Source of the DNA: Atopobiaceae bacterium
GTDB lineage: Bacteria; Actinomycetota; Coriobacteriia; Coriobacteriales; Atopobiaceae
Assembly (NCBI GenBank): GCA_017533825.1
Contig: JAFWIE010000033.1
Location: forward strand, 1 to 64,000
Direction: 5' to 3'
Length of the DNA: 64,000 nucleotides
Below are positions 9,761 through 30,179 of this stretch, piece by piece. Both the position numbers and the translations under genes were made by a program. Numbering within the stretch: the stretch's first letter is position 1; each line of letters begins with the position of its first letter. The notes under the pieces are model-generated. The model was not told the origin of the DNA, made no database searches, and saw only the letters and a list, made by a program, of their open reading frames with translations.

Positions 9761-10480
9761 ATGCGAACCATTTATTACGAAATCTACGAGGACTTGCGCG
9801 ACAAGATTCTCGACGGGACCTATGCCTACCAAACATACATGCCGGCGGAGAGCCAGCTCATCAAGATGTATCAATGCTCGCACAACACCATTCGCAAGTC
9901 GATATCGGTGCTCATGCTGCACGGATTCGTGCAGCCCATCCGTGGCAAGGGCGTCTTGGTGATCTATCGCCCCGAGCGGCGAGCGAACTTCGTGTTGGGC
10001 GACATCGAGACGTTCAAGGAGGCCGCCGCCCGTAACGGCCTCGTCGCACAGACGAAGGTCCTCGTCTTTGAGCACATCACCGCCAGCGAATCCCTCGCCG
10101 AGCTTACGGGATTCATGCCGGGAGACGAGTTGCTGCACCTGGAGCGCGTGCGCATCTTCGAGAACGAGGCGCTCATACGTGACAAGAGCTTCTTCCTCTC
10201 GTCGGCGCTTCCCGGCCTGACGCCACGCATCGCGGAGGACTCGGTGTACGCGTACGCCGAGAACGTCCTGGGCATGCGCATCGTCACGAGCAATCGCACG
10301 GTGACCGTCGACTACGCGACGGCCGAGGATCGCGACGCCATGGACCTGCTTGACTTCGACATGCTCGCCGTGGTCACAAACCACACGTTCAATGAGCAGG
10401 GAGTTATGTTTGAGTCTACCCAATCGCGTCATCGTCCGGACTTCTTTACCTTCCACGATACGGCGGTCCGAGGATACTGA
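9761..10480 (+). CDS. GntR-family regulator, TreR-like (UTRA domain)
   Basis: Transcription factor of 239 residues: N-terminal winged helix (YYEIYEDLRDKILDG, then CSHNTIRKSISVLMLHGF about 43-60) and a C-terminal UTRA effector domain (about 90-235). The start at 9761 follows GGAGG (9753-9757); an upstream frame-mate start lacks a site. It is a paralogue of 30427-31146, with the same length and shared blocks such as IETFKEAAARN and NRTVTV. It is divergent from the TreC-like gene, whose intergenic region (9597-9760) has an imperfect dyad with arms TAAGT/ACTTA near 9626-9650. It probably represses that gene until a sugar phosphate binds. Confidence 0.85.
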   Translation: MRTIYYEIYEDLRDKILDGTYAYQTYMPAESQLIKMYQCSHNTIRKSISVLMLHGFVQPIRGKGVLVIYRPERRANFVLGDIETFKEAAARNGLVAQTKVLVFEHITASESLAELTGFMPGDELLHLERVRIFENEALIRDKSFFLSSALPGLTPRIAEDSVYAYAENVLGMRIVTSNRTVTVDYATAEDRDAMDLLDFDMLAVVTNHTFNEQGVMFESTQSRHRPDFFTFHDTAVRGY

Positions 10481-10505
10481 CCTGCAAGAAACGCCCTTCT
10501 GGTCC

Positions 10506-10534
10506 GGGAAGAGGGAGCGCTGCTCCCTCTTCCC
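10506..10534. terminator. Bidirectional terminator hairpin
   Basis: Perfect 13-bp stem GGGAAGAGGGAGC/GCTCCCTCTTCCC with a 3-base loop, between the convergent regulator and GH13 genes. No strong T-run on either side. Confidence 0.7.
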
Positions 10535-10559
10535 GTTACCCTTCCCACCAACTGCTTCG

Positions 10560-14236: not shown

Positions 14237-15793
14237 CTACTTGCTCATCTTGACGACTTGGGCGCCTGCGGCCACATTACCAAGCGTCGGTTCGATGGAC
14301 TTGTACTCGTCGGAGTTGGTGACGATCACCATGGTAGTCGTGGGCTTGCCGGCCGCTTCGATGCCATCGAGGTCCGCAACCATGAGCAGGTCGCCAGCCT
14401 TTACCTTGTCGCCGGTAGCGCAGCGCGGCGTGAATGGCTTGCCCTCGAGCTCGACCGTGTCGATACCGATGTGGAGGAGAATCTCGGAGCCATCATCACC
14501 GAGCAGTCCGATGGCGTGTCCGGTCGCGGCGAGCATCGTGACGGTGCCCGAGACGGGAGCGTACACGGCGCCGTCGGAGGGCTCGATTGCAACGCCCTTG
14601 CCCATGGCGAGCGAGGCGAAGACGGGGTCAGGCACACCAGTCATGTCCACGGCAATGCCACTCATGGGGGCGGCGAGCGTGTTCGGCGCGTCAACGGCGT
14701 TCACGCGGGTGGGAGCTGCGGCTGCAGCCTCCTTGGCGGCGGCGATGGCCTCCTGCTTGATGCCCTCAGCCTCGGCGGCCTTGTCGACGCCCTGGCGCTT
14801 GCCGACGATCAGGGTGAGCACGAAGGGAACGACAACGGCCACGGCCATGCACAGCGCGTAGGGCAGCATGGACTGGGGCTGCATGGCAAGGATGCCGGGC
14901 AGGCCACCGACGCCGATGGCGTTAGCCGTGCAGGAGAACAGGCAGGAGAGGAAGCCGGCGCACGCGGAGCCGATCATGGCGCACACGAACGGGAAGATGA
15001 ACTTCAGGTTGACGCCGAAGATGGCGGGCTCGGTGACGCCCAGGTAGCAGGAGAGGCACGCGGGGATGTTGACCTGCTCGGCGTTCTCGTCCTTCTTCTG
15101 CAGGACGATCATGGCGAGTACGGCAGAGCCCTGCGCGATGTTGGAGAGGGCAATCATCGGCCACAGCATCGTTCCGCCGTAGTCGGCGATGAGCTGCAGG
15201 TCGATGGCGTTGGTCATGTGGTGCAGGCCGGTAATGACCAGCGGTGCATAGAGACCGCCGAAGATGGCGCCGAAGACAACGCGGAAGTCACCAGTAATGC
15301 CAGCCTGGACGACGGAAGAGACGGCAGTGCCGAGCGCCCAGCCAATGGGGCCGAGCACGAAGTGGGCGGCTATGACGCCAAGAAGGATGGAGCAGAAGGG
15401 CACCAGGATCATCTGGATGATGGTGGGCACTATCTTCTTGAAGAAGCGCTCCAGGTAGTTAAAGGTGATGGCCGCAAGAATGGCGGGGATGACCTGCGCC
15501 TGGTAGCCAACCATGTGAACCTGTGCGAAACCGAAGTCCCAGCTATACTGCGCCCAGGTCTCCTCGGTAGCACCGGCCACGGCATAGGCGTTGAGGAGCT
15601 GGCTCGAGACGAGCGTGAGGCCCATAACGATGCCGAGCATCTCGGTGCCGCCCATCTTGCGCGTGACGGACCAGCAGATGCCCACGGGGATGCCGAGATG
15701 GAAGACAGCCTCACCGATGAGCCACAGGAAGTGGTTGACGCCCGACCAGAACTGGCTCATGGAGGCGAGGGTCGCATTGCCATCGGGCCCGTT
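14237..15793 (-). pseudogene. treB: Trehalose PTS permease treB, 3' part (EIIC-EIIA), cut by transposon
   Basis: This encodes most of EIIC (from SQFWSGVNHFLWLIGEAVF; membrane segments to about NAIGVGGLPGI) and a C-terminal EIIA domain of the glucose type, with the phospho-His motif ILLHIGIDTVEL. EIIB and the first part of EIIC are missing. They lie 14 kb away at 29754-30179 in the same orientation. Reading through the junction from the 3' part gives an unrelated leader (MVRLLGEVGHIRALTIH) from transposon DNA. Joining at the shared AACGG (coding strand) gives ...FGMGNGPDGNATLASMSQFW, in frame. The intact protein would be about 660 residues and import trehalose as trehalose 6-phosphate. Confidence 0.85.
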
Positions 15794-16024
15794 ATGTATG
15801 GTTAACGCACGAATATGTCCAACCTCGCCAAGCAGCCGAACCAAAGCGAAGCAACCCCCTCAACCTGCGAAAACACGCAATTCAACAGAAGAACCAAGCT
15901 CAATCTACCCTCAGGGGCCTCGGATCACAATTTATACAGTGCCGAGCCTGTGATTCCCGGGGTAATTGCGCACATCAGATTGTTGTCTCCCCTACGCGCT
16001 ACCTTGTACCGGTAAGAGAGCAAC

Positions 16025-16038
16025 TGTCTAAACGAACA
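16025..16038 (+). repeat. 14-base inverted motif, left end of transposon
   Basis: TGTCTAAACGAACA lies just upstream of the first recombinase gene. It matches at 13 of 14 positions the complement of 29728-29741 near the right end. It may be a recombinase-binding or autoregulatory site. Confidence 0.4.
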
Positions 16039-16050
16039 GTGAAAGGGTGA

Positions 16051-17379
16051 GTGCGAGTGATTGTCGTACGAGAATCTGCAGACACCACGACGGGCCTGAC
16101 ATACGACCTAACATCAGATGACGGAACGGCTCGCAACGTCCGCACCATGTGCACGACACAAAGGGTCAACGGCGTCAAGACCTTTGTGTTCAGGAACGCC
16201 CGCATGGCGATACTGATGGAACCGTCCTGCTTTCTCACAGATGAGTTCCGATGCGATGCGGAAAACACCGCCAACCAAGCTGTCAGCGCGATCAAGGTGC
16301 TTGAGTGCTTCTGCTCGATCGTAGAGACACCGTTCGCCGCCTTTGATGGCACATATGCGCGGGCGTTCATGCAATTCCTCCGCGGTACGCTGTCCGAGGG
16401 AGTCGACTATAGGTTCGAACTCATTACCAGACGATCCGAAGGAACAGTCGGCGCATACCTTAAGCACATAAGAAAGTACGCCACTTGGCTGCACGCAGAC
16501 AACAGCCCCTTCCTACAATCGAAGACAAAACTGCTGGGACCCACCTACGGTTTCCAAGAATGGCAACCAGAGACGCATCGGCTCAAGGCGGACATCGTCT
16601 CTGCGTCGGAGGCGCCGAGATACATCTCTCTTGACGAGTATCGAAGCATCCTGCGAGTGGTTGACGGAGAGTGGACGATCGAGGAGCGATGCATCATCCG
16701 CCTCATGTTCGAGCACGGCCTTCGCATAGGAGAGGTGCTTGGCCTTACCACTGAGGATCTCAGCTGGACCAAGGCGCGGGACGGGACTCAAAGGTATTCG
16801 GTCATCCTGAGGAACAGGGCGAGCGACAAAGCTGACCAACACGCAAAGATGCTGATGCGAGTGACGAGTCCGGAGCAGTACGGCACCGCCGACTACAAGA
16901 GACGCAACTATGGGTACCAGCAGGTCTACATATCAGAGAACCTGTTCTTCCAGATTGCCGAGTATGCCGAGGGGGCATTTCCAGAGTCGCAGGATACGTC
17001 CTGCTCGAACCTCGCCGACTGCGTTGCGGGTGGCGAGGAGAACCACTACCTGTTCGTGAACACAAAGAGAAGGCCCCTGTCCTCCAACCTCTGGAACAAG
17101 AGGCTCAGAAGGATTATGACGGATGCCGGTGTCCATGTGGACAAGGAGGCCCGCAGGACGAACCTGAACCACAGGTTCAGACACGGGTACGCGATGTTCC
17201 TCACCCACACCGCGAAGAAGAACGGGCAGCCCCTCGACGACTTCACGGTGATGACGCTGATGCGGCACAGGAGCATCGCGTCGACCGAAATCTACCAAAG
17301 GCCCACCCAGGAAGACGTTGCGCGGATGCAGGAGGAAATCATCGGTTCGTTCGAGGGAGAACTGTATGGGAACGGATAG
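16051..17379 (+). CDS. Tyrosine recombinase 1 (TnpA-like)
   Basis: Site-specific recombinase of 442 residues. An N-terminal SAM-like core-binding region (about 80-165) precedes the catalytic domain: Arg in FEHGLRIGEVLGLT (about 230), HRFRHGYAMF (His/Arg pair, about 370), MRHRSIASTEIYQRP (His and nucleophile Tyr, about 410-425). All catalytic residues appear present. Start is GTG 16051 or the GTG two codons later; GAAAGGG lies upstream. The gene overlaps the next by 14 bases, so the recombinases are translationally linked. It is the first gene inside the left end of the element and presumably acts at the ends together with its two partners. Confidence 0.85.
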   Translation: MRVIVVRESADTTTGLTYDLTSDDGTARNVRTMCTTQRVNGVKTFVFRNARMAILMEPSCFLTDEFRCDAENTANQAVSAIKVLECFCSIVETPFAAFDGTYARAFMQFLRGTLSEGVDYRFELITRRSEGTVGAYLKHIRKYATWLHADNSPFLQSKTKLLGPTYGFQEWQPETHRLKADIVSASEAPRYISLDEYRSILRVVDGEWTIEERCIIRLMFEHGLRIGEVLGLTTEDLSWTKARDGTQRYSVILRNRASDKADQHAKMLMRVTSPEQYGTADYKRRNYGYQQVYISENLFFQIAEYAEGAFPESQDTSCSNLADCVAGGEENHYLFVNTKRRPLSSNLWNKRLRRIMTDAGVHVDKEARRTNLNHRFRHGYAMFLTHTAKKNGQPLDDFTVMTLMRHRSIASTEIYQRPTQEDVARMQEEIIGSFEGELYGNG

Positions 17380-19690
17380 CAATGGATTGGCTGATATGGG
17401 ATGGTGGACAGAGAAAACCAGCGAACTAACTCAGCGGGCGTCCAGTCCTCGTGCCAAGCAATTCCTCGAGGCCGTTATGTCGTACGAGTGGGAGCAGGCA
17501 GACGGCGACAAGCGGAGGATAGCATTCAACCGCCTTCTCCCGGACGTTCTCGTTGGACACATCGTCCCGGACTTCTCTGAGGAAGACGTCACTGTCCCGT
17601 GGTTCAGAAACCTCCTCGAAGACCTAGCAGAAGGGGGGGAACACGTGGTGATCAGTGGCTCGTCCCTGCGCCCGAAGGCATCGGAGGCAGTCCGCGACAT
17701 AATCGTTGTTGCCTGCGATCAAGAGTTTCACCCAGGGGACGAGTTCTCCAAGTGGGTTGAGCGCAATAGGGGCGCCCTTGTCACCACGAAGGTCAGGTCT
17801 ATAACGCGACGCCTCGAGGCCATCCTCTCCAAAGACACGATGCCCGGCTTCGAGTTCGTCGTAGAGGATTCGTTCAGAGAAGGGCGGAGGTGTCGCAACA
17901 TCACGGCGATCGAGTTCGATACGGACTCCGTCTTTGTTCGCCGCCTCATCCTCGACGCCCTCAGCACCTCGGTCTTCTCGAAGTCGCTGCGATCCCATAT
18001 ACCGTCCACGAAGGCAACAGCCGCTTTCACCAAGAGCATGGGGTTCGTTCCGACATCGCTTGCCGACTTCACGGTAGAGACGTTCTCCAGGCAGTTCCAC
18101 TATCTCGACAAGGAGGGCAACAAGAACCAGAGGATGATCTCACTGCGGGAACTCGTCTACATCTATGCCCATGTAATCAAGCTCCTGCCAGACGACCAGG
18201 CGCAGTTCACGTACGCGACCGGTCTTACCTTGGAGATGTTGACGAGGAGCGACTTCACCCACCAGTGGAGGGAAGGGTTCAGGGCGTACGTCCACAATCC
18301 GATTGACCCCGTCCCCGACAACCCACGTTGGCTCCTCACTCCAGGGCGGGACGAGCTCGAGCGTACGTGCGCCTCGCCTTGCTCAATGAGGGTGGATGTG
18401 AGCTACAGCGACCCGAATCTGCAGCGAATGCTTGCCACGTGGCTCTGGCAGGAATGCGATCGCGTCGACATTATCCGGGCGATACACCGACGCTTGAGGT
18501 CATTCCTTGATGAGTTGGTCCCAGGGAAAGAGGGCGGTCGCCCGACGGCAACGAACGAGGGGGTGCTGCGATGGCTGAGCGAGGTGAAAGCGGCCTTCAA
18601 TGACAGGGCATTCCGACGCCTCAAAGCCTCCCTGACCTCCTTGCTCGAGTTTGGCGAGGGCAACGGGTTCATAAGCGTCGAGCCGTCCGCATGGATGCTC
18701 ATCTCTACGGTGTCGCCCCGAAAAGACAACGACGCCGATTCAGCCGCTGCGGACCCCGAGCACCTCAAGCTCCTCGCTGCCGAACTCGAAGACCGGTCCC
18801 CTAACTCACTGATAGACGAGTTGGTCTCCTGTGCGTTCGCAGTGGTCGCGCTTACCAAGCTGCGCATTGGGAACATCCTGAGTCTACGGGTTGGCGACCT
18901 CGTCGAAGATGGCCCCAGACACCTGCACTCGGTCCGCGTATCGACGAAGACCGACGGGCACGGATACAAGGAGGTGCAGGTATCCTCAAAGATTTACCAG
19001 CTGCTCAAGGCCGTCGTCGGGATGACGGAGGTGGTCAGGGAGCATGCCACACAAGACTTGAAGGACTACCTCTTCATCTACGAGACGAGGACGTTCGGCT
19101 CGGTCAGACGGCTAAGTCCCCTTCTGTTCCGCACTCGCCTCGTAGACGCATGCGACAAGCTTGGCATTGAGAGGATAACGCCGCGGGACATAAGGCGCAG
19201 GTACCAGACGGAGGTCGTCCTGCGCGGCATCGAACACAACTACAGCAGGCTCGCCCTGAGCAACCTGACCGGGCACTCCTCCCTCGCAACGACTGAGCGC
19301 TACTACGTCCGCGACAACGTTCGGAACTATCTCGAGGCGACATACGGCATCGAGATTGGCACGGCGCCCCTCAGGGGTGAGATTGTGGCGGACGGCGACG
19401 TGGCGTTGGGCATGGAGCTTGGGCCCGAGAAGGCCGTCGAGGCCGGTGCCGGATATTGTCGCAACGAGTCATGCAACATACGGGGGACGGTCTCATGCCT
19501 CATGTGCGAGTCGTTCTTGACGACTCCGAGGTGCATACCCGAGATGGAGGAGGCAATCGAGGGAATCACGCGGCAGATGAGAGACTGCGCCGACTCCCTG
19601 CACGACCGAGATCACCTCCTTGCCGTGAAACGTCTGTATCTCGGCTACCTCGCCGTGATGTACAGCATCAGAGATGGAGGAGAAGAATGA
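17366..19690 (+). CDS. Tyrosine recombinase 2 (TnpB-like, long)
   Basis: A 774-residue recombinase-like protein. ATG 17366 has GAGGGAGA upstream and overlaps the end of the first gene. Catalytic region near residues 500-660: Arg in LTKLRIGNILSLR, then ITPRDIRRRYQTEV where the usual box-II His appears to be Arg, and TGHSSLATTERYYVR with Tyr. The C-terminus has a Cys cluster (CRNESCNIRG...CLMCESF) that looks like a zinc-binding element. It is longer than the roughly 630 residues known for Tn554 TnpB. The altered His suggests a structural or regulatory role, or a tolerated variant; this cannot be decided from the sequence. Confidence 0.75.
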   Translation: MGTDSNGLADMGWWTEKTSELTQRASSPRAKQFLEAVMSYEWEQADGDKRRIAFNRLLPDVLVGHIVPDFSEEDVTVPWFRNLLEDLAEGGEHVVISGSSLRPKASEAVRDIIVVACDQEFHPGDEFSKWVERNRGALVTTKVRSITRRLEAILSKDTMPGFEFVVEDSFREGRRCRNITAIEFDTDSVFVRRLILDALSTSVFSKSLRSHIPSTKATAAFTKSMGFVPTSLADFTVETFSRQFHYLDKEGNKNQRMISLRELVYIYAHVIKLLPDDQAQFTYATGLTLEMLTRSDFTHQWREGFRAYVHNPIDPVPDNPRWLLTPGRDELERTCASPCSMRVDVSYSDPNLQRMLATWLWQECDRVDIIRAIHRRLRSFLDELVPGKEGGRPTATNEGVLRWLSEVKAAFNDRAFRRLKASLTSLLEFGEGNGFISVEPSAWMLISTVSPRKDNDADSAAADPEHLKLLAAELEDRSPNSLIDELVSCAFAVVALTKLRIGNILSLRVGDLVEDGPRHLHSVRVSTKTDGHGYKEVQVSSKIYQLLKAVVGMTEVVREHATQDLKDYLFIYETRTFGSVRRLSPLLFRTRLVDACDKLGIERITPRDIRRRYQTEVVLRGIEHNYSRLALSNLTGHSSLATTERYYVRDNVRNYLEATYGIEIGTAPLRGEIVADGDVALGMELGPEKAVEAGAGYCRNESCNIRGTVSCLMCESFLTTPRCIPEMEEAIEGITRQMRDCADSLHDRDHLLAVKRLYLGYLAVMYSIRDGGEE

Positions 19691-21558
19691 GTGCCGCAGC
19701 CACAGCTGAGAGGGCCGACTGGTGGGGACAGGGGCAGGACGACGCGACGGTCATCCAATTGGCCGCCACACGACTTGATGGCAACGAACTGATTGCCGGG
19801 CTGCGGAGCCACCCGCATCTCGACTTGTCTGCCTTTGAGGTCGACTTCAACTCAAGCACATGGAGGTTCACCTCGTGCGACGGGGCATTCGATGGGCCGA
19901 AGACGCCCGTTGTGAGATTCAAGCCCGATGGAAGCGAGGACATCTGGAAGCTATGGCTTGTATGCCTGACCGTGTGGGAAGGATCGAAGGTCAGAACACA
20001 TATCAAGCACCTCTACGAGGCGCGGAGGGTCTTTAACGCAATCGCCGGAGGAGACGTCCGCCACACGACAATCGACTTGGAGCAGTATTTGGAGCTCTCA
20101 GAGGCGAGGACCAACCTCTCCCGTGGATACAGGTACTCGCAGGCGATTTCACTCTTGAGGTTTCTCGAGTTCAGGCACGCCTTCTTCGGGGTCCCAAACG
20201 ATCCCGAGATGATGAGCAGACTCAGGGATGACGCCAAGCAATACGGTCGGTCGCTCACCTATTCCGTGGGAACCCCCTCGATTGATGACGAGTACCTGGT
20301 TCCCCTTGTGGAGACGTGCCATGAATCCATGGCGGACGAGGACGAGCAGCCCCGATACCGCATAGCGGCAGCGGCCCTTCTCCTTGCCGCCCAGATAGGC
20401 ATGCGCATCTCAGAGGCAAGGACATTGGAGGCAGACAAGCTCGAGATAGCGTCGATGGAGGGAAAGCCAGACATCGCTTTCATCACGTTCAAGACCTACA
20501 AGGGTGCCAGGGGCGATGAGGGCTACAAGACGGTCGAGTCCATCATCAACCCTATTGCGCTGTCCGCCTATCTGTTCCTTGAGGGATACTGCTCGGAGCG
20601 GCGGAAGAGGGTCGGAACGGACGCACTCATCGTGACGCCCGAGCAGAAGGGGTCTTATCCGAGCCAAGGGACCTTCGCGAACCTGATTAAGGAGTTCATC
20701 CTCGTGCACCATGCCACCATCCCGTGCATCGGGACCGAAGACCGTTTCCCGGACATGCAAATCTCCAAAGTTGAAACAGTTGCGAGGAGGGCAAAGAAGA
20801 GGCCGTCCGCAATCGGCCTCACCGGTGACGAAACGCTCGTCTACCCGAAGTTCCACTCGTTTCGCTCTACGGTCGCCACGAAGCTCTACGAATCAGGGGT
20901 GGACATGCGGTACATAAGGAGGCACATGGGGCATATGGACGAAAACACGACGGCTGGCTACATCAGAAGCGACCGGGAGATAGAGCAGCGCAACAATGAC
21001 CTCGTCTACAAGGCAGTCTTCGGCGACGGGGCGGAGTTCATCGGCCCGCACGGCGGCGAGTTCCAGCAAATGATTGCGGAGTATGCGTCGAAACTACCCG
21101 AGAAGGTGAAGGGGGACCTTGACGAGCTTGTCGCCGCCACGTCCAAGGCCTTCCCGCTGCGCAGGAAAGTCGGGGGCGTATGCATTCGCTGTGGGAGGAT
21201 GGCTCCGTGTCCCTCAAACACGGAAACCGACCAGATCTACTGCGCATTCGGCGTCTGCCCCAACCAGTGTGTCCTCTACTTCTTCGCCGACCAGTGCCTC
21301 GAGACCGTGCGCAGCCATATGGAACTCATCCCCATAAACACTTCCAGGGGGCAAATCATGGCCGCTCGCAACGAACTCAGGAAGGCACAGAACATAATCA
21401 GGGACTCCCTCGTCCCCGAGCTCGACTCGCTTGAGAGGCAGCTCGATGCCCACGGGCGGGAGCACATCATCGGACAGTTCCCCGAGCTGGAAGAGCTCAT
21501 AGACACCCTCCCCGAGGTCAGGAAGGAGATAGCGGAATGGCAGGCGATGAGCATATGA
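19687..21558 (+). CDS. Tyrosine recombinase 3 (TnpB-like)
   Basis: A 623-residue protein whose start overlaps the preceding stop (ATGA). Catalytic motifs: AAQIGMRISEARTLE (Arg, about 240), HSFRSTVATKLYESG (His-x-x-Arg, about 395), RRHMGHMDENTTAGYIRSD (His, Tyr, about 415-432). A C-terminal Cys-rich stretch follows (CIRCGRMAPC, then CAFGVCPNQC), with an extended helical tail. Its length is close to Tn554 TnpB. The tight overlaps on both sides place it in one transcript with the other recombinases. It likely forms the active complex with them at the element ends. Confidence 0.85.
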   Translation: MSAAATAERADWWGQGQDDATVIQLAATRLDGNELIAGLRSHPHLDLSAFEVDFNSSTWRFTSCDGAFDGPKTPVVRFKPDGSEDIWKLWLVCLTVWEGSKVRTHIKHLYEARRVFNAIAGGDVRHTTIDLEQYLELSEARTNLSRGYRYSQAISLLRFLEFRHAFFGVPNDPEMMSRLRDDAKQYGRSLTYSVGTPSIDDEYLVPLVETCHESMADEDEQPRYRIAAAALLLAAQIGMRISEARTLEADKLEIASMEGKPDIAFITFKTYKGARGDEGYKTVESIINPIALSAYLFLEGYCSERRKRVGTDALIVTPEQKGSYPSQGTFANLIKEFILVHHATIPCIGTEDRFPDMQISKVETVARRAKKRPSAIGLTGDETLVYPKFHSFRSTVATKLYESGVDMRYIRRHMGHMDENTTAGYIRSDREIEQRNNDLVYKAVFGDGAEFIGPHGGEFQQMIAEYASKLPEKVKGDLDELVAATSKAFPLRRKVGGVCIRCGRMAPCPSNTETDQIYCAFGVCPNQCVLYFFADQCLETVRSHMELIPINTSRGQIMAARNELRKAQNIIRDSLVPELDSLERQLDAHGREHIIGQFPELEELIDTLPEVRKEIAEWQAMSI

Positions 21559-22055
21559 GCGACGAACAAATCGACGAGGTCGACGAGAAGATGCGGGCGA
21601 CCCTCGCCGCGCTCGGCGTGAACCTCGACACCGTCGACGGGCGAACGATGGGCCAACTCAGGAAGGTCGAGCGAGCGATCAGGGACGAGGCGGAGGCTCG
21701 ACGAAGAGCCGAGGAGGAGGTCAGGAGGCACAACCTCTCCGTCTCGTCCGTCGCGAAGGCCAGCGGGGTGAGCCACGCCACGTTCTACAACAAGAGCCTG
21801 CTCAAGCGGTACGTGAACGCCCGCAAAGAGGAGGAAGTGCCAAGGACGCGGGAAGGCAGAGACGTGGCCCTCGAGCGGAGGCTAGAGGAGGCCCAGGCAG
21901 AGATCGCCTTGATGAACGAGCAGGGCGCCCTGATGGTCCAGCTTCAAATAGAGAACGACCGTCTCAAACGTAGGGTCAGGATGCTGGAGGTACAACTGCA
22001 GGGAGGACAGCCCGCAATGGATGGGAAGGGTGAAGTCTTGCTTTTTCCGACCTAA
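21555..22055 (+). CDS. Small coiled-coil transposition protein (TnpC-like)
   Basis: A 166-residue, highly charged protein whose ATG 21555 overlaps the third recombinase stop (ATGA). It has a short DNA-binding-like stretch (NLSVSSVAKASGVSHATFYN, about 62-81, a TnpC/HTH-like pattern) and a long C-terminal coiled coil (about 105-155, ERRLEEAQAEIALMNEQ). In Tn554 the third gene, tnpC, is a small accessory protein that affects orientation and frequency of transposition. Size, order and the coiled coil match that. The assignment rests on context more than on sequence identity. Confidence 0.7.
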   Translation: MSDEQIDEVDEKMRATLAALGVNLDTVDGRTMGQLRKVERAIRDEAEARRRAEEEVRRHNLSVSSVAKASGVSHATFYNKSLLKRYVNARKEEEVPRTREGRDVALERRLEEAQAEIALMNEQGALMVQLQIENDRLKRRVRMLEVQLQGGQPAMDGKGEVLLFPT

Positions 22056-22082
22056 GCATGACGGGAAGGATGTCGCCCCACC

Positions 22083-22121
22083 ACCCAATCTCCCCTCTGG
22101 GTAACGGAGGGGAGATTGGGT
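22083..22121. terminator. Terminator between recombinase and cargo operons
   Basis: Perfect 15-bp stem ACCCAATCTCCCCTC/GAGGGGAGATTGGGT with a 9-base loop, placed between the convergent recombinase operon and restriction operon. It is suited to stop both. Confidence 0.75.
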
Positions 22122-22186
22122 ACTTCATGCCAGTCGAGACGAGTGTCTGATGGTTTTACGGTCAGCGGACTTGTTGGGGCACGACG

Positions 22187-25100
22187 CTAATCTAGCGGTA
22201 TGACGACGGACTCGATGAACGCTATCTCATCAGACGTGATTCCATAACGTTCGTAAAGCATCTGGTCTGTCCACTCATGGTCGTATTCCAAGTCGGGCAC
22301 GAAGGCGTAGACGTCCCGAGGGGCGTGCTGAGTCAGCTTCCTGCATGACACTAGAAGCCTCACCAGACGAGTTCGCAGGTAGGAGGCATAGTTCTTTGCC
22401 TCTTCTTCAGTCTCGAAACGTCCCGCGACGATATAGGTCTCTGAGCATGCGGTTCCTGGGCCAGCAATAATTGGCCGGGAGAGGAACCTCCTTTCAATCG
22501 CTGCACTTGTCCCCTGAACGGCGTTCAGCAGGACTTTCCAATCGTCAATCCATTCGGCATTCATCAGTACCTGTGAGCGCTCAATCCACGTCTCCTTCTG
22601 CGAGCCATAAAACTTCACCGGATTGTCCAGTTTCTCTGGAGAGGTCTGTCCGTGGACATAGGTGCGCAGACCGAATGGCTTGCTGGATGATACGCGGGCG
22701 TCGAGCGTAGGCTCGTTCCTCGCCTGAACTTTCCTGAGAATTGGAACAGCCTCGTTGCGCCTCACCAGCACGTCGAACTCACCGATGTCGCGCTCGACTG
22801 CCTCTCCGACGGGTTTTCCCAGTTCGTAGGTCTGGACGGAACACAGCCCGTCGTGCGCCTTGTCCCACAGGAAGTACGAGATACCACCCCTGATCTTGAC
22901 GTTCGGGAACGGTTCGTAGAGTCGTGGGAAGTCCACTATTCGGCTCATGTGAGAGTCATGAAGCATGGCATCACGATACGCGTCAAGTCCTCTACCGCCG
23001 GTAAACCACCTAGATGGCGTGATCATCGAGATATAATCCGGATCGAGCCTTATTGCGGTCTTCACGAACTCCTGATAGACGGGCATCGCTGAGTTGCCGT
23101 AACCGCCATCCTTCATCTGGTAAGCTGGGTTGCCCACTATAGCGGAGAATTGCATCTCGCTGCCCTCCATTCCCCATAACTCTGGGGTCGCAATCTGTTC
23201 GCAGAACGGTTCTCTGTTAGACTTGAGCGTCCCTATGAGGTCTTCTTCGCAAACGGAACGAGTCGTCTTTTCCGAGTAGCCCACTAGCACCCTACGGGTA
23301 ATCGCCTCAGCCATCTTGGTCATGCACAGCACAAAGACGTTCTCTCCCACCGTGTCGAACCACAGGTCGTTCTTCTCGTCGGTGGATAGCTCTTCCTCCC
23401 TGCTCCCGAGGCGTGCTCTGTAGATGCTGTATGCCGCATAGAGCGGATAGAGTCCCGTCTTTGAGTTCATCTCGAGGATTCGCGCCTTGGCACTTCCCAC
23501 CGTCTTTACGGTAGTCTCCCCTCGATCCACGAACCGGGGTTCATCTCGCAGGTTCTTTTCCTCATGGGGATCGTCGTAGAAGTCCCAGCCTCCGAGACAG
23601 TCGGCGATTTGCATGTTGACCACTCGCCACGGTGTCAGGACGGTTTCTTTGTCGGGGTTCTTGAAGTAGCCGAACAAGGCAGCAATGCTCTTCGTTCTCT
23701 CCGTTGGGTCAAGCGTGTCTGCGTGACGTGCGATATCCCTGATGCGCCTGCCAGCCGCGATGAACACGTCCTCGTCGTAGAAGCGACGGAACTTTGAGAA
23801 CAGTTCCTTGGTAACATCTCTAGGCATGAACTGATTCCAAGAGGCATCGTCCACGAGATCGACGAAGTCGTCGATGGTTAGGTCTGCGCTGATGGGGATG
23901 TCGGCGCCAAAGATGAGGAGGGGCATCCGCACCGAGATGTGCCGCAGGGTTCTTATCGCTTTTTTGCGATTCTCCTTGGCCTTCTTCAGTGCATCTGCGA
24001 GCGCCTGCTCCTCGTCGGAACGATCCTCCCTAGGCTTCCTACTGGCTCTCTTTGCCTGCTCGTATTCCTCCTCTGTGAGTCCCTGCTCGTTGATTGTGAT
24101 CTCGGTGCCCGTTCGCTCGTTTGTCGATTTGCCGATTGTGTCGCTCAGCTCTTTGAATGCGGCGGCATCGCCCTCGTCGAGTCTGAATAACTCGTCTGTG
24201 TACAGGGTCTCGTCCTCGAATCCGCTTTGGACGACGCGATCTGCGTACGCGCTCTTGAGGCGTTGTAACATCTCGGGGACGTCGTACTCAGTCATCATCG
24301 ACCCGGAGAGGCCGATGACGGGGCAGAAGTTCAGGAAGTCTCCGAGCCGTTTGCGTTCGTCGTCGTCGGTGCCACCGGGCTTGGCGGAAACCCTCACCGC
24401 CTCCGCCACCATCTTGAGCGTACGGTCAGGCGCGAAGTCGAACACGTATGCCCGCTCCTTCGCCTTGCCGTCAATCTCGCCGGGCGACTGGACGCGGAAT
24501 ATCGTCTGCATGTAGTTTGCGGCGCTTGTGCTGTACGAGCCAGAGAGCATGAGGACGGCGGACCACTCCTTCACGGTTACGCCTGTGGTGAGGCGCCCAC
24601 ATGAGAGGGTTATTGTGTACCCTCCGACGGCGTTTGCCTTGCTAATGGCGGCCTTGACCTCTTCAAGAGCCTTCTCGGTATCCACCTCCTCGTCACCGGG
24701 CCCAGCAACGTTCACCACATTGAACGCACTCGAGCCGAACACGGGATGCTCCATCATGAGGCTCTTCAGGGCCTTCGCCGCATCGACGCCTGGGACCATC
24801 CAAAGGGAGTGACGGAACATGTCCCGATACCGCTCCGTGGAGTATGGGTAGGACGTGTCAGCGTCCTCTGCGACGAGCAGATTCAGGAACGATCGAATAT
24901 CCCCCTCGTGGACGAAGTCGCCGACCGAAGCCCCTTCTGGCAGAGTTAGACGGTCCTTCTTGATGTCGCCGAGCCATGTCCTGAAGAACTCCCGGAAATT
25001 GAAGGCGACCTCGTCGCCGCCCGAGTAGGATGCAGCATCGAAAACGCTGCCCAAGTCATAGGTGTAGATGGATAGTTCGGGAAGGTCCTCGTAGGGGTTA

Positions 25101-26173
25101 GGCTCACCGAGGTGATTCTTCCACCAGTCCCTCTTATCCCTCTGCTCCATAACGTAGTCCCATGTGTATACCTCGGCCGGGGAGTACTCACCGATGATGT
25201 TGAACGGCGTGCCGGACAGCCTGAGCGTCTTTGTTCGCCCCTCGCCCTCCTTCACGACGCCCGCAATGGCCTTCATTCCGAGTTCCGTCGTCGTGCCCTC
25301 GTGCGCCTCATCGATGATGACAAAATCCCATAGGGTCTTGAACAAAAGCTCGTTCTTGGAGAACCTACCGCCGACTCCCTCTGACTCGCGCGTGTCCTGC
25401 ATGGACGCGAAGTATACGAATGGCTTGTCCCTTCCCACGAGGTCCTCGAGTGAGGTCGTTCTCTTCGAGCCGAACCGATACTCCGTGTCGCCGAAGAAGA
25501 CCTTGTTGAACTCCTCGTGCCAGCTCCCCTCCACGACGGGCCGGTGAGTGAGGATGGCGGTCTTGGCGAACCCCATGCGACGAACAACCTCGAGTGCGGC
25601 GAGCGTCTTCCCGAAGCGCATCTTCGCGTTCCAGAGCATCCTGTCATGGCTGGCCAAACGCGTGCAGGTCATCTCTACGGCAACCTTCTGCTGTGGGTAG
25701 AGATTGACAGGCTTTGCTTTGAACTCTATGTCTACCACACCGGGAAGGCTGAGTTCGTATGCCTTGACGGCGGCGATTGCCTTCTTCGCGGTAGGAAGCC
25801 CGCATTCGTACCATTCACGAGCACCCGTGTCGCCAATCTTGACGTTCTTAACGCCTGAATTGACCAGAACCTCCCGAACGGCGTAGTCCTTGAACCGCTC
25901 GCGAACGACGCTGCCGTCTACGACCCGCTCCCTTACCGCAATCTCTGTGTGGAGCAGTTTGTATGCGATGCCCGCCGTGGTCGTGTACCGCCTGATGCGG
26001 TTGTGCGCCGCCTCGTTCAGCGGCTCGGTGTTCGGTGTAAGCTCGTCCAGAGCAAGGCCGCTGTGGACAGTCGCCTCGCCTATCTTGACGAGTCCCCGGT
26101 GCTCCAAGTCGTTGATCTCAAACACGTAGATGCACTTGTAGCACATCGTATCGGCGAAGGTCATGCTACTCAT
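22187..26173 (-). CDS. GIY-YIG-like / DEAD helicase / Eco57I-type methyltransferase fusion
   Basis: A 1328-residue putative restriction-modification protein. The N-terminus (about 10-35, IYVFEIND...LVKIGEA) resembles GIY-YIG/T5orf172 nuclease domains. A superfamily 2 helicase follows: Walker A-like MRFGKT (about 190), FVIIDEAHEG (about 285) and LRLSGTPF (about 320), with a second helicase lobe to about 570. A central region leads to a methyltransferase part with ILEMNSKTGLYPLYAAYSI and the catalytic-type motif FSAIVGNPAYQ (about 1015), and a C-terminal target-recognition-like region. Its start overlaps the upstream gene stop (ATGA). It probably cuts and methylates foreign DNA, but activities and site are unknown. 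Confidence 0.7.
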   Translation of the reverse strand: MSSMTFADTMCYKCIYVFEINDLEHRGLVKIGEATVHSGLALDELTPNTEPLNEAAHNRIRRYTTTAGIAYKLLHTEIAVRERVVDGSVVRERFKDYAVREVLVNSGVKNVKIGDTGAREWYECGLPTAKKAIAAVKAYELSLPGVVDIEFKAKPVNLYPQQKVAVEMTCTRLASHDRMLWNAKMRFGKTLAALEVVRRMGFAKTAILTHRPVVEGSWHEEFNKVFFGDTEYRFGSKRTTSLEDLVGRDKPFVYFASMQDTRESEGVGGRFSKNELLFKTLWDFVIIDEAHEGTTTELGMKAIAGVVKEGEGRTKTLRLSGTPFNIIGEYSPAEVYTWDYVMEQRDKRDWWKNHLGEPNPYEDLPELSIYTYDLGSVFDAASYSGGDEVAFNFREFFRTWLGDIKKDRLTLPEGASVGDFVHEGDIRSFLNLLVAEDADTSYPYSTERYRDMFRHSLWMVPGVDAAKALKSLMMEHPVFGSSAFNVVNVAGPGDEEVDTEKALEEVKAAISKANAVGGYTITLSCGRLTTGVTVKEWSAVLMLSGSYSTSAANYMQTIFRVQSPGEIDGKAKERAYVFDFAPDRTLKMVAEAVRVSAKPGGTDDDERKRLGDFLNFCPVIGLSGSMMTEYDVPEMLQRLKSAYADRVVQSGFEDETLYTDELFRLDEGDAAAFKELSDTIGKSTNERTGTEITINEQGLTEEEYEQAKRASRKPREDRSDEEQALADALKKAKENRKKAIRTLRHISVRMPLLIFGADIPISADLTIDDFVDLVDDASWNQFMPRDVTKELFSKFRRFYDEDVFIAAGRRIRDIARHADTLDPTERTKSIAALFGYFKNPDKETVLTPWRVVNMQIADCLGGWDFYDDPHEEKNLRDEPRFVDRGETTVKTVGSAKARILEMNSKTGLYPLYAAYSIYRARLGSREEELSTDEKNDLWFDTVGENVFVLCMTKMAEAITRRVLVGYSEKTTRSVCEEDLIGTLKSNREPFCEQIATPELWGMEGSEMQFSAIVGNPAYQMKDGGYGNSAMPVYQEFVKTAIRLDPDYISMITPSRWFTGGRGLDAYRDAMLHDSHMSRIVDFPRLYEPFPNVKIRGGISYFLWDKAHDGLCSVQTYELGKPVGEAVERDIGEFDVLVRRNEAVPILRKVQARNEPTLDARVSSSKPFGLRTYVHGQTSPEKLDNPVKFYGSQKETWIERSQVLMNAEWIDDWKVLLNAVQGTSAAIERRFLSRPIIAGPGTACSETYIVAGRFETEEEAKNYASYLRTRLVRLLVSCRKLTQHAPRDVYAFVPDLEYDHEWTDQMLYERYGITSDEIAFIESVVIPLD

Positions 26174-27138
26174 CTCGGCGTCCTTCCCACGAGCGAAGAG
26201 AAGTCGATTGGTCTACCCTCGTCCCAGTCGTATACTACGCAGGGGACGAGCTCGTAGTTCTTTCCCGTGCTGGAATCGAATGAGTCCCCGAGGTCCAGCT
26301 GGCCCTGGGCCGCAGCGCGGATGGCATACGGTGCGAATCCGGTCAGACCGTCCATTTGCCACACGTTCCAGACGATAATCTCGGCAAACCTCCTTGAATG
26401 CGAAGCGAGGAGCTTCTCGCCGAATTGCCACTCATAGGCGTCCTCGACGGCAGCCAAGACGTTTTCCCGAGCGAGGAGTACGTTATCTCCCTGGTAGTCG
26501 TATGCATAGCAGGACTTGACGGCGCGCTCCGCCCATTCAAGCCACTCTCTTTTGCCGGCAACATTCTCCGAAACGACGCGAAGCTTGCGGTCGAGGAGGC
26601 CCACCCTGTCCGGCACCGATATCTCTTGACCCGTAGACACGTCGTAGCGTGTCGTGATGTAGGGTGCCTCGCCGCACGCAACCTCGAGCACGTTCTTCGT
26701 AACATAATCCCGCCAAGTACGATTACCGTCGAAGATGACGGGAAGCGCACAGGTATCCCAGCTTCTCCTGCGCTCGATGTTGAAGCCGGGATCGCGACCG
26801 AACCAGGCAGCGTCGACGAGGTTGTTCTGAACGTTGCACACCCAGGCGGGCGTGAAGACCTCCGCCCTCGCCCTCGTCCTCTTCTTTTGCTCCTCGGTGG
26901 TCTTTGCCACACGGGGTCGGATGACCTCCGCATGCCCCCCAGTCACGCGTTCGACGGTCAGCTCGTCCGACCTGTCAAACCCCTCCCCGAGCGAGGTGTA
27001 GTCATCGGTGGCCCACCTCAGATTGCCCAGCGTGGCGTGGTCCATAAGGAGAAGCTTGAGCGTGCCAAGGTCCCGGTCTGCGAGTGCCTGCTCCTTGACG
27101 TCGATGGCTTCGGTCACTTCAGGCACTTCTCTACCCAT
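26170..27138 (-). CDS. Methylase-like specificity/M subunit of restriction system
   Basis: A 322-residue protein between a small regulator and the large fusion protein, overlapping both. It contains EVFTPAWVCNVQNN and EVACGEAPYITTRYD, which resemble the S-adenosylmethionine-binding and motif X regions of adenine methyltransferases that work with Eco57I-type or helicase-linked restriction proteins. No NPPY is seen here; the NPAY lies in the partner protein. The two may therefore form one functional methyltransferase. Close overlap (ATGA at 26170-26173) argues for a stable complex. Exact family not recognised. Confidence 0.6.
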   Translation of the reverse strand: MGREVPEVTEAIDVKEQALADRDLGTLKLLLMDHATLGNLRWATDDYTSLGEGFDRSDELTVERVTGGHAEVIRPRVAKTTEEQKKRTRARAEVFTPAWVCNVQNNLVDAAWFGRDPGFNIERRRSWDTCALPVIFDGNRTWRDYVTKNVLEVACGEAPYITTRYDVSTGQEISVPDRVGLLDRKLRVVSENVAGKREWLEWAERAVKSCYAYDYQGDNVLLARENVLAAVEDAYEWQFGEKLLASHSRRFAEIIVWNVWQMDGLTGFAPYAIRAAAQGQLDLGDSFDSSTGKNYELVPCVVYDWDEGRPIDFSSLVGRTPR

Positions 27139-27269
27139 TCGTGGATGAGGGCAGAGACGGTGACGCCCTTGTCGAGGGCGGCCTGCTTCAGAGCCTTCTT
27201 GTCCTCGAAGGTGATGGATATGGTCATAGTCGTACGTTCGGACTTGCCCTTCGTTTCCCTCGTCGGCAT
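27114..27269 (-). CDS. Small ribbon-helix-helix protein
   Basis: A 51-residue protein with a strong ribosome site (GGAGGG, 27274-27279). The sequence TMTISITFEDKKALKQAALD followed by KGVTVSALIHEWVEKCLK is a classic ribbon-helix-helix pattern: a short strand, then two amphipathic helices. It overlaps the start of the methylase-like gene by 25 bases, so it heads that operon and probably represses it. The inverted repeat at 27291-27308, just upstream, is a natural operator candidate. Confidence 0.75.
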   Translation of the reverse strand: MPTRETKGKSERTTMTISITFEDKKALKQAALDKGVTVSALIHEWVEKCLK

Positions 27270-27290
27270 TCGCCCTCCATTACGTAATCA

Positions 27291-27308
27291 ATGAATTAGT
27301 GAATTCAT
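27291..27308. promoter_or_regulatory. Candidate operator of the restriction operon
   Basis: Inverted repeat ATGAATT-AGTG-AATTCAT lies about 22 bases upstream of the ribbon-helix-helix start, in an AT-rich patch. TATGAT on the minus strand overlaps it and may be the -10 box. Binding by the neighbouring regulator is inferred. Confidence 0.45.
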
Positions 27309-27466
27309 CATATCATGGTAGGAGGAAGGCAAGGGGGCTTGTCGACTTGTGACGCACTCTGGATAGTGTCTGACAACGTACGGGCAACAGGCTTCGGTCG
27401 GGATTGGCGCATTGTCCGTCCGTTGGCGTACAATCCCCATTCCGAAACCATCTAGAGGAGGATGAG

Positions 27467-28639
27467 ATGGCAGTGTCCGCAACAGCGCATCAACTAATAA
27501 TCGTTGGGAATGGGTTTGATATCGAGTGCGGACTCAATTCCCAATTCAGCAGCTTCTTCGCCTCGAGATTCAAGGATATTGACAATATCAACGACTACGA
27601 GGAGACAGCGTGGAGCGCGGCAGTTGAAAAAGCTGGGCTGACCGCGTGGGACTTCATACTGAGGAGAAGCTCAGACTCCGATTGGTGCGACATAGAAGAG
27701 GCCATCAAACGATGGGTAGTGACTCCCAGAACCGGCCTTCCCGTGAACGAGCGCGTGCACAAGACGGTGGGTGCCACTAGGAAGTACCCGTTCGCCCGCC
27801 ATCCCTACGCCCTAAGTGGAAATCGCTTAATAAGCGAAGAGAACGACGACGCCTATGTCTACGGCAACGTTTGTAGGCGCATCTGGATGCTGATTGGTCC
27901 TACAAAGGTCGAGTCTTTTGGCCAGAAGGAGCTCTTTCCCATTTTGAGGTCGGAATTGGGGCTTCTTGAAAGGGCCTTCGAAGAGTATCTCCGCAAAGAG
28001 GTGGCGTCAAAACCCGACTACCAGATTAAGTCTAGGGACCTATTCGAGGAGTTGGCCCGCGATGGGTTTCCCAGTCCGAGGCACGGCATTGTCGACACCT
28101 CGGTCCTCACATTCAATTACACTAACCCCTTCACGGACCGGATGGTTGGACCGGGCCTCGACGATGACAACGTGGTGAACATCCACGGCCATCTGAACGG
28201 CGAGATTATATTCGGGATCGACGGGACTGACTGCATGAATGACGACGACGCCCTGCCATTCACGAAGACATATCGCGTCGTGATGGCGGGCAACCAAATC
28301 CGCCAAGTGTTGTCCCATTCGGATTCTGCTGGTGAAGGCGCTCAGACGGATTACGTGAAGTTCTACGGACACTCGCTCGGAAAACCTGACTACTCATACT
28401 TCCAGTCGATATTTGATGGCATCGAGCTGTACGGCGGTCGCACAAGGCTCGTCTTTTATTACAGGCCCTGGCTTGTCGACGGGAGCCTCGTTCCTGAGGA
28501 GGTGGCCAGGACAGGCATGGTGCGGAAAGTGTCGAATCTTCTCAATGCCTATGGCAAGACACTTGACAACAAGGACCACGGAAAGAACCTCATGCACAGA
28601 CTGATGCTCGAGGGCAGACTCGAGGTGAAACGTATCTAG
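27467..28639 (+). CDS. AbiH-like abortive infection protein
   Basis: A 390-residue protein beginning MAVSATAHQLIIVGNGFDIE. The IxGNGFDxxxGLxSxFSxF pattern at the N-terminus is the signature of the AbiH family of phage abortive-infection proteins. A conserved central NYTNPFTD and a late HSLGKPDYSYF also fit that family. ATG 27467 follows AGGAGGATGAG. The stop codon abuts the start of the DUF4238 gene with no gap, so the two are one operon. The mechanism of AbiH is poorly understood. Its place beside a restriction operon inside a transposon supports a phage-defence role. Confidence 0.75.
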   Translation: MAVSATAHQLIIVGNGFDIECGLNSQFSSFFASRFKDIDNINDYEETAWSAAVEKAGLTAWDFILRRSSDSDWCDIEEAIKRWVVTPRTGLPVNERVHKTVGATRKYPFARHPYALSGNRLISEENDDAYVYGNVCRRIWMLIGPTKVESFGQKELFPILRSELGLLERAFEEYLRKEVASKPDYQIKSRDLFEELARDGFPSPRHGIVDTSVLTFNYTNPFTDRMVGPGLDDDNVVNIHGHLNGEIIFGIDGTDCMNDDDALPFTKTYRVVMAGNQIRQVLSHSDSAGEGAQTDYVKFYGHSLGKPDYSYFQSIFDGIELYGGRTRLVFYYRPWLVDGSLVPEEVARTGMVRKVSNLLNAYGKTLDNKDHGKNLMHRLMLEGRLEVKRI

Positions 28640-29662
28640 ATGGATGTCGAAAAGAAGCGAGACAATCACTACGTGCCCCAAGCGTATCTCAGGCAATGGT
28701 CCAACAACGGGAACACCGTTTGGACATATGACACAGTTGTTCGGGACAAGCGTCAAAATGCGTGGAGGTCAAAGAGTGTCAGAGGTGTCGCCCATTGGCT
28801 TGACTTCTACACGCAGGTTTGTGACGACGGTACGATTGATGACTCGATTGAGGTTCTATTCGGGGAGAATTACGAGCTGAAGGCAAGCAACGTCCTCAAG
28901 AAGGTCAGGGAAAACGAAGCATTGACCTCAGAGGACATGTCTGCACTCATAGACTTCGCGATTCTCCAGATGGTACGTACTCCGGCTGCATATCTGAACA
29001 ATCGCACTGCCATGGGACTCGCCTTCTTCTCAGCGGCCAGCAAGACAGCAAACAAGTTTCTTGAGTTGGAGCGCGACCCGAACTTCAACGAGAACACCCC
29101 TGCGCTCGTCGAGGCATTACAGCCAAATTGTCCTCCCTTTCCCCAATGGGAGTTCAGCATAACGATGGACGAATCCACGGGTGACTATACCTACTCTATG
29201 CCCATGGGAAGGAAAAACTATTTGGCGAGTATCGGACATGTACTCAATGGAGAGATGGGGAAGCGCATCCGAAGTTACCGGTGGAACGTGATCAAGATGC
29301 CTGAGGGCACGACGCTCCCAACATGTGACAATCCCTTTGTTAGGGCAGACTTAAGGGGCTTGGACCAAGGCAAGAAAGTACACCACGATTTGTCACAATG
29401 CACAAACTGCTTTATGCCATTAACACCAAAGCACCTGTTGTGCGCAGACTCAGACGCAGATCAACCAATCGCGGCCAGATTGGCAGAAGATGACGAGCTG
29501 TTGGAGCTTGTTAATGCGCTCATTGTTCAAAATGCTTTACGTTACGTGTACGATTGCAAGAGGAGCAGCTGGATTGAGAAGCTTCGGCCTCGTCGTGTTG
29601 ACCCTGAATACTGCAACAGGATGGATGATGCAATGAGGCGTTGGAACGAAATACAAGACTGA
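28640..29662 (+). CDS. DUF4238 protein
   Basis: A 340-residue protein with the DUF4238 hallmark near its start (DNHYVPQAYLRQWSNNGNTV). Later conserved-looking parts are LPTCDNPFVRAD (about 230) and MPLTPKHLLCADSD (about 260), typical of this family in which a promised function is a nuclease- or hydrolase-like role; none is established as far as I know. It starts at the base after the AbiH-like stop codon, so expression is coupled. It is the last cargo gene before the right end. A defence function is inferred from context only. Confidence 0.75.
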   Translation: MDVEKKRDNHYVPQAYLRQWSNNGNTVWTYDTVVRDKRQNAWRSKSVRGVAHWLDFYTQVCDDGTIDDSIEVLFGENYELKASNVLKKVRENEALTSEDMSALIDFAILQMVRTPAAYLNNRTAMGLAFFSAASKTANKFLELERDPNFNENTPALVEALQPNCPPFPQWEFSITMDESTGDYTYSMPMGRKNYLASIGHVLNGEMGKRIRSYRWNVIKMPEGTTLPTCDNPFVRADLRGLDQGKKVHHDLSQCTNCFMPLTPKHLLCADSDADQPIAARLAEDDELLELVNALIVQNALRYVYDCKRSSWIEKLRPRRVDPEYCNRMDDAMRRWNEIQD

Positions 29663-29727
29663 GGTTGTCTAAGTTCTGGGCTGAGTTATTGGTTGGTGGC
29701 TATGGGATACATGGGTGGGCATAGAGG

Positions 29728-29741
29728 TGTTCTTTTAGACA
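29728..29741 (-). repeat. 14-base inverted motif, right end of transposon
   Basis: The minus strand reads TGTCTAAAAGAACA, 13 of 14 identical to 16025-16038. It is 12 bases from the right junction. A partial third copy (TTGTCTAAG) lies on the plus strand at about 29664-29673, so the right end carries an inverted pair. Confidence 0.4.
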
Positions 29742-29753
29742 ATCCTCTCCGTT

Positions 29754-30179
29754 CCCCATACCGAAGTAGGGCATGTCGCCCAAGACGTTGCGGAAGCCAA
29801 GGATCAGACCGCCGGTGATGATGGCGGGAATGAGCGGCGCAAAGACCTCAGCGATGGCGCCCATGGCACGTTGCAGCGGATTGCCCTGCTGGGCGGCGAG
29901 CTTCTTCGCCTCTTCCGTGGAGACGCCTGTGATACCGCTGATGGCGACGAACTCGTCATAGAAGTCGGCGACTTCGTTTCCGATAATCACCTGGAACTGG
30001 CCGGCCTGGGTGAAGCTGCCCTTTGCACTGGGCAACGCCTCGATGGCGGGCACGTCAGCGATGCTGGGATCTACCAGAGTAAAGCGCATGCGGGTAACGC
30101 AGTGCGTTAGGGCAGCGATGTTCTCTTTACCGCCCACCAGACGCAGCATTTCGCGCGCGTCGTTCTCGAACTTTCCCAT
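29754..30179 (-). pseudogene. treB: Trehalose PTS permease treB, 5' part (EIIB + start of EIIC)
   Basis: The N-terminal 144 codons of treB. The EIIB domain has the phospho-Cys motif THCVTRMRF (about 27-35) and the TreB-like KGSFTQAGQFQVIIGNEV. The linker and first membrane helix of EIIC follow (PLIPAIITGGLILGFRNVLG), ending FGMGNG at the transposon edge. Reading on gives 15 foreign residues and a stop. Ribosome site GGAAGGGAAAC precedes ATG 30179. The rest of the gene is at 14237-15793. An EIIB fragment alone cannot transport, so trehalose uptake by this system should be lost unless the element excises. Confidence 0.85.

Follow-up and report, generated by a model that had tools for sequence, protein, structure and literature searches.

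Restriction-modification (R-M) systems must hold modification and restriction to the same target when their specificity changes, and Type I systems use a shared S subunit for both. The Type ISP enzymes LlaGI and LlaBIII carry a superfamily 2 (SF2) translocase, then a gamma-class methyltransferase (MTase) and a target-recognition part on one long chain, and their nuclease belongs to the Mrr family (PMC4666363). The horizontally acquired DnmA-YeeB-YeeC cluster brings together an adenine MTase, an SF2 helicase and a T5orf172/GIY-YIG domain; its MTase is one MmeI-like chain, its nuclease and helicase are separate, and neither a split between motifs III and IV nor a second N-terminal half (N-half) has been described for it (PMC9973331). 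In this study, we analyzed an operon in a 64,000-nucleotide stretch of an Atopobiaceae genome (contig JAFWIE010000033.1, hereafter the window), which encodes a 51-residue ribbon-helix-helix (RHH)-like protein, a 322-residue protein that we call S, and a giant protein of 1328 residues. Unlike the Type ISP enzymes, this locus has a T5orf172 GIY-YIG nuclease, a separate S gene, an apparently split MTase and an exchangeable C-terminal part, and unlike the DnmA cluster it has the nuclease and helicase fused and the MTase divided.

Our analyses suggested that the operon probably encodes a nucleoside triphosphate (NTP)-dependent R-M system of three exchangeable modules, S, C and N-H-XP, in which S with C would modify DNA and N-H-XP with C would restrict it. 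For this analysis the giant was divided into N, H, XP and C (Table 1), profiles were built and the architecture of each locus was read. An open reading frame (ORF) check of the window found all three frames intact on the minus strand, in the order RHH, S and giant, with coordinates and lengths as in a preliminary description of this DNA.

The S and C halves of the methyltransferase

The PADLOC model MTase_II spans the whole of S (4e-93), which carries MTase motifs X, I, II and III. The family form of its motif III, NxWQMDG, is strongly conserved, and the tail beyond it has a median length of 64 residues, in line with the 59-96 residues that separate motif III from NPPY in natural S-C fusions. 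Motif IV, sought as [DNS]PP[YFW] after motif I, was present in none of 119 S ORFs. The preliminary description had pointed to EVFTPAWV and CGEAPYI in S and to the lack of NPPY, and all three features hold throughout the family. Solved structures were searched by sequence, both protein by protein and with S, XP and XP-C profiles, and no real relative emerged; NCBIfam was likewise uninformative for S and for the giant. The structure search also listed EF-Tu matches to S, which were weak and judged to be due to chance.

The second half of the MTase, C, comprises the last 325 residues of the giant and begins at motif IV. Proteins consisting of C only open with M-x-F-D-x-[IV]-[IVL]-G-N-P-P-Y, and nearly all of those with a start codon have the Met 8 residues before the Asn. 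The AlphaFold model of a natural S-C fusion (L085; predicted local distance difference test, pLDDT, 89.1; predicted template modelling score, pTM, 0.87) matched gamma-class adenine MTases over both halves, including CamA (Z 21.8), BrxX (Z 20.3), MmeI (Z 19.4), LlaGI (Z 19.0) and M.TaqI (Z 14.7), with M.TaqI residues 21-412 lying on model residues 85-601. Taken together, the division of the motifs, the starts of the C-only proteins and the fold of the fusion make it well supported that S and C would form one MTase cut between motifs III and IV. The earlier guess that methylation requires both chains gains support from the same evidence, as well as from stand-alone pairs of S and C genes.

The absence of motif IV and the unusual motif I of S could also fit an inactive MTase-like subunit that merely aids DNA binding by the giant, as METTL14 helps METTL3. 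We regard this as very improbable, since S stops where C starts, the S-C fusions rebuild one canonical fold and not two, and one would expect a pseudo-MTase partner to retain the second half of the fold.

Gene arrangements point the same way. At least 564 relatives of S were found in the representative genome collection and 39 loci were viral, and matches occurred on plasmids of Enterococcus, Pediococcus, Lactiplantibacillus and Bifidobacterium and on phages; in the phylum of the window S was rare, with 6 of 396 sampled genomes. Of 80 genome loci, which were chosen by S, 60 had the arrangement of the window (S beside N-H-XP-C), and most of the remainder were cut by contig ends. The other arrangements were three separate genes for S, C and N-H-XP (L005, L011, L058, L100, L114, L147, L148), an S-C fusion beside N-H-XP or alone (fusions with or without a helicase gene: L003, L010, L085, L098, L102, L105, L149), and S with C in the absence of a helicase. 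All three main arrangements were seen among relatives within the order of the window (L145 to L149). In a divergent actinobacterial locus (L160), the slot of S (5985-6863, minus strand) is taken by an N-half whose motif I is of the textbook kind (EPAAGDGNF), with separate genes for N-H-XP and for C.

PTm1 and other phages carry S and C, and no helicase lies near them. In Tenacibaculum phage PTm1 (L007/L099), C, a small helix-turn-helix gene and S lie in a row, and this pair is likely a self-protecting MTase. Other viral contigs (L106-L113, L115-L118, L122-L126, L129) carry a shorter S of ~230-290 residues and no C in the locus; several have C elsewhere in the record, in some cases inside ORFs of 1800-1900 residues. 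In addition, plasmid p1 of Bifidobacterium longum (L005) has an IS256 family transposase gene at 10125-11309, between S and C.

Table 1. Positions of the operon, its modules and motifs, the surrounding element and comparable invertible cassettes (window coordinates unless a locus is named)
Feature	Residues	Position	Strand	Basis
S, N-half of gamma-class adenine MTase (predicted), 322 aa		26170-27138	-	ORF, PADLOC, motifs, fold of natural S-C fusion L085
S motif X, EVFTP	93-97	26848-26862	-	at least 91% conserved in 133 S segments
S motif I, EVACGEAPY	152-160	26659-26685	-	E-x-[TSA]-C-G-E-A-P-[YF], ~96% conserved
S motif III-like, NVWQMDG	258-264	26347-26367	-	~64 residues before the end of S
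Giant restriction protein (putative) N-H-XP-C, 1328 aa		22187-26173	-	ORF, Pfam, PADLOC, module profiles
N, T5orf172-type GIY-YIG nuclease domain	1-130	25784-26173	-	homologue domain matches, conserved residues
H, SF2 helicase/translocase	150-665	24179-25726	-	Pfam ResIII; motifs conserved in 88 sequences
H Walker A, RFGKT		within 25604-25624	-	motif conservation
H DEAH		25301-25312	-	motif conservation
XP, divergent MTase N-half (predicted)	776-1003	23165-23848	-	motifs; fold of residues 635-1328
C, MTase half, motif IV through target-recognition part	1004-1328	22190-23164	-	Eco57I Pfam; starts of C-only proteins
Motif IV, NPAY in the window copy		23120-23131	-	motif comparison with relatives
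RHH-like protein, 51 aa		27114-27269	-	ORF; weak, mostly RHH-type Pfam matches
Two small palindromes just upstream of RHH start		27279-27308	-	suggestive only
Mobile element carrying the operon, 13.97 kb, inserted in PTS EIIBC gene		15792-29760		empty-site comparison
Invertible C cassettes (candidate)		L059 10.9-14.1 kb; L093 10.9-14.1 kb; L048 0.8-4.0 kb		inverted repeats and adjoining recombinase

The giant protein and its divergent N-half

Pfam identified ResIII (7e-8) and Eco57I (2e-21) in the giant, and PADLOC matched it to REase_MTase_IIG (6e-48). The GIY-YIG domain went undetected when the window protein was scanned alone. Among 30 homologous N-termini, 20 matched T5orf172 (best 7e-9) and 15 matched MUG113; conserved residues across the homologues include Tyr, Lys, Gly, Arg, Asp, His and Glu, of which Tyr16, Lys30, Gly32 and Asp96, together with Phe94, are invariant in 97 sequences. 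The SF2 motifs of H are intact, with the Walker A, DEAH, SGT and QxxFRxQ motifs all conserved. The combination of a nuclease, an SF2 helicase and an Eco57I-type MTase on one chain, which the preliminary description had recognized, is borne out by these matches.

That description had also suggested a single-chain system and overlooked that the giant has a divergent N-half of its own, XP. In the window copy, XP has LTPW as motif X and ILEMNSKTGLYP as motif I, with Lys replacing Gly. In the family, the Thr-Pro of motif X is invariant, and motif I takes the form [DE]xxxKxGx[YF], in which one Gly is kept and the Lys in the loop is found in 97% of sequences. The predicted fold of window residues 635-1328, covering XP-C (pLDDT 88.5, pTM 0.87), matched the same templates as S-C, namely CamA, BrxX, LlaGI (Z 17.6) and LlaBIII (Z 16.9), and M.TaqI residues 21-413 aligned to model residues 211-668. 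Since S-C and XP-C fit the same MTase templates, S and XP would occupy the same position against C. Comparison of the S and XP profiles aligned motif X and nothing more, so that common descent of the two is not supported by sequence. Where C is encoded elsewhere, XP still remains part of the helicase chain.

The XP-C fold leads to another explanation, in which the giant is a self-sufficient enzyme resembling Type ISP or IIG, XP-C methylates, and S is an accessory protein (a stabiliser, a regulator, or a second MTase with another partner). Besides the complete gamma-class fold of the window copy and its likeness to CamA, BrxX and LlaGI, the invariant Thr-Pro and the retained Gly of XP are in its favor. 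We nevertheless consider it rather unlikely, because nearly all XP sequences have the Lys in the motif I loop, XP is also present on helicase proteins without C, where C is fused or adjacent to S, and phages retain S with C and no XP. Moreover, in the unbiased sample of the phylum, S accompanied full-length XP in six of six genomes, the same six of 396, which also speaks against a single-chain system, and it is in the slot of S that L160 has its textbook motif for binding S-adenosylmethionine (SAM).

For the R-M system of three modules, we infer that methylation relies on S as the SAM-binding N-half of a gamma-class N6-adenine MTase and that the motor works with XP, a modified N-half that would not bind SAM, because XP has the Lys in motif I and stays with the helicase, H and XP co-vary (see below), and L160 has a textbook motif I in the slot of S. 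S would dock on C and the pair would methylate target sites of the host, as the fusions, gene pairs and fold suggest. C would also let the giant find its target site. At an unmethylated site, judging from its domains and from the analogous Type ISP enzymes, the SF2 motor would move along DNA at the expense of NTP and the GIY-YIG domain would cut. Both this restriction step and the exchange between S and XP are our inference. As one C would serve both chains, its replacement would shift the targets of modification and restriction together.

Several observations weigh against this scheme. A complex of S and C as separate chains is proposed on the grounds of fusions, gene pairs and a fold predicted for a single chain, motif I of S deviates from the textbook GxG, and some phage records have S and no detected C, although these are possibly fragments. 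As XP-C folds as a complete MTase, the giant alone might methylate. In the window copy, the near-invariant His100 of N is Arg and motif IV reads NPAY, compared with NPPY in most relatives, so the activity of this copy may be impaired or weakened.

These two substitutions would also suit a relic or a regulatory methylation system which no longer restricts, like DnmA-YeeB-YeeC of B. subtilis, with the window copy in decay. In B. subtilis, that cluster of the same domain set showed no restriction of phage (PMC9973331), although it is reported, as cited in the same paper, to affect phage sensitivity in Vibrio crassostreae. We consider this explanation unlikely, as the reading frames are intact and overlapping, the helicase motifs are complete, the His is missing in three other giants too (L057, Arg; L002, Gln; L062, Gly), and other defence genes accompany the operon on its mobile element.

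Exchange of modules and the setting of the operon

Closely related loci differ sharply in C. Identity between L052 and L092 was 100% for S, 100% for H, 94% for XP and 34% for C, and between L013 and L014 it was 99, 98, 99 and 35%, respectively. Pairwise identities of H and XP were correlated (0.87), and the correlation of H or S with C was near zero, which suggests that H and XP evolve together and that C is exchanged wholesale at the junction between motifs III and IV. Over all pairs the correlation of S with H was 0.05; we read this as pointing to exchange of S, with a contribution from saturation at low identity.

Comparison of Prevotella corporis (L059) with a contig from a viral collection (L093) suggested that in some Bacteroidota C may also be replaced by inversion. 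The two loci are collinear through S and the giant up to motif IV, and past it the next 3 kb, with extra C cassettes, are inverted. The C that L093 expresses shares 82% identity with a silent inverted cassette of L059 and 43% with the expressed C of L059, so that these related loci appear to be in opposite states. Inverted repeats of 28-37 bp sit in the motif IV codons, and Capnocytophaga L048 has them there too (97% identical); in each of the three loci, the cassettes border a tyrosine recombinase gene. Some of the silent cassettes lack their own start codon. In the window we found neither an additional C cassette nor inverted repeats at motif IV, and the genome holds one C; therefore, no switching is claimed for the window copy.

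A more far-reaching and tentative proposal, possible though doubtful, is that the two N-halves alternate on one C, with S as the SAM-binding methyltransferase half and XP as a non-binding reader of the restriction site. The swap of S and XP would then switch between modification and restriction, and both specificities would change at once when C is replaced, which in some bacteria would happen by programmed inversion at motif IV.

The genes of the operon are closely packed, with an overlap of 4 nt (ATGA) between S and the giant and an overlap of RHH with S. The 51-residue protein is a probable regulator of the operon and, on weak grounds, probably represses it. The preliminary description had placed an RHH protein with an operator-like dyad at the head of the operon; the ORF and two palindromes are there, and the RHH identity rests on weak Pfam matches (0.009-0.14), mostly of RHH type. 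The larger palindrome, ATGAATT-N4-AATTCAT (27291-27308), and a second one, ATTACGTAAT (27279-27288), both upstream of RHH, are suggestive of a possible operator. No homologue of RHH was found in the other loci compared, and a promoter scan returned no sigma-70 site.

The operon is carried by an element inserted in a phosphotransferase system (PTS) EIIBC gene, which is uninterrupted in four genomes of the same genus; the flanks of the element meet there with a 3 bp overlap. Its cargo includes three overlapping tyrosine recombinase genes and a small DUF6262-like gene, a set that we take to be Tn554-like, as well as AbiH and DUF4238 genes (27437-29662), which are divergent from the operon and adjoin it. 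The element is a small mobile defence island.

Comparison with known systems

PADLOC matched the giant, S and C to Type II/IIG models (PDLC03626, PDLC03390, PDLC03375) and lists S and C each as a Type II MTase of its own, yet neither holds the full motif set. The IIG model matches the giant, but its SF2 motor motifs are complete and S is a separate chain; to our knowledge, Type IIG enzymes, which hold MTase and endonuclease on one chain, cut without NTP-driven translocation and have no SF2 motor. The Mod protein of Type III systems belongs to the beta class, with motif IV before X and I, whereas the order here, X, I-III and IV across S and C, is that of the gamma class; likewise, Type III Res has a C-terminal PD-(D/E)XK nuclease, whereas here H is followed by XP, a half with an MTase fold. 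No Methylase_S match, as expected of Type I HsdS, was found in the giant, S or the other element genes scanned, and no bacteriophage exclusion (BREX) gene, such as PglZ or BrxC/PglY, was present among the giant, S, RHH, AbiH, DUF4238 and recombinases scanned. Domain searches thus recovered neither a Type III nor a BREX subunit set; Type ISP agrees in the SF2 motor and the MTase with its target-recognition part, not in the nuclease or in completeness on one chain.

The suggestion of a little-described single-chain type accordingly survives in part. Single-chain it is not, the same domain set is known on separate chains from DnmA-YeeB-YeeC, and its proteins are listed by PADLOC under Type II/IIG. 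The open literature that we searched, to which REBASE and subscription papers do not belong, gave no account of a split between motifs III and IV or of two N-halves, an absence that does not amount to proof. CamA, PglX/BrxX, MmeI and M.TaqI share the fold of S-C and XP-C, but all are single-chain MTases. If our reading is true, S and C would be a naturally split adenine MTase and offer a modular scaffold ready for changes of specificity, and the database entries that count them as two complete Type II MTases would need correction.

Phase-variable Type I hsdS loci are alike in that inversion swaps a target-recognition gene (PMC4948785, PMC7394358), and unlike in that the inverted cassette here includes catalytic motif IV, with the repeats lying in the motif IV codons. 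The specificity part shared by modification and restriction would in this case be half of the MTase fold itself, cut at one junction, and free swapping of this target-reading half may explain how such systems change target without loss of self-protection.

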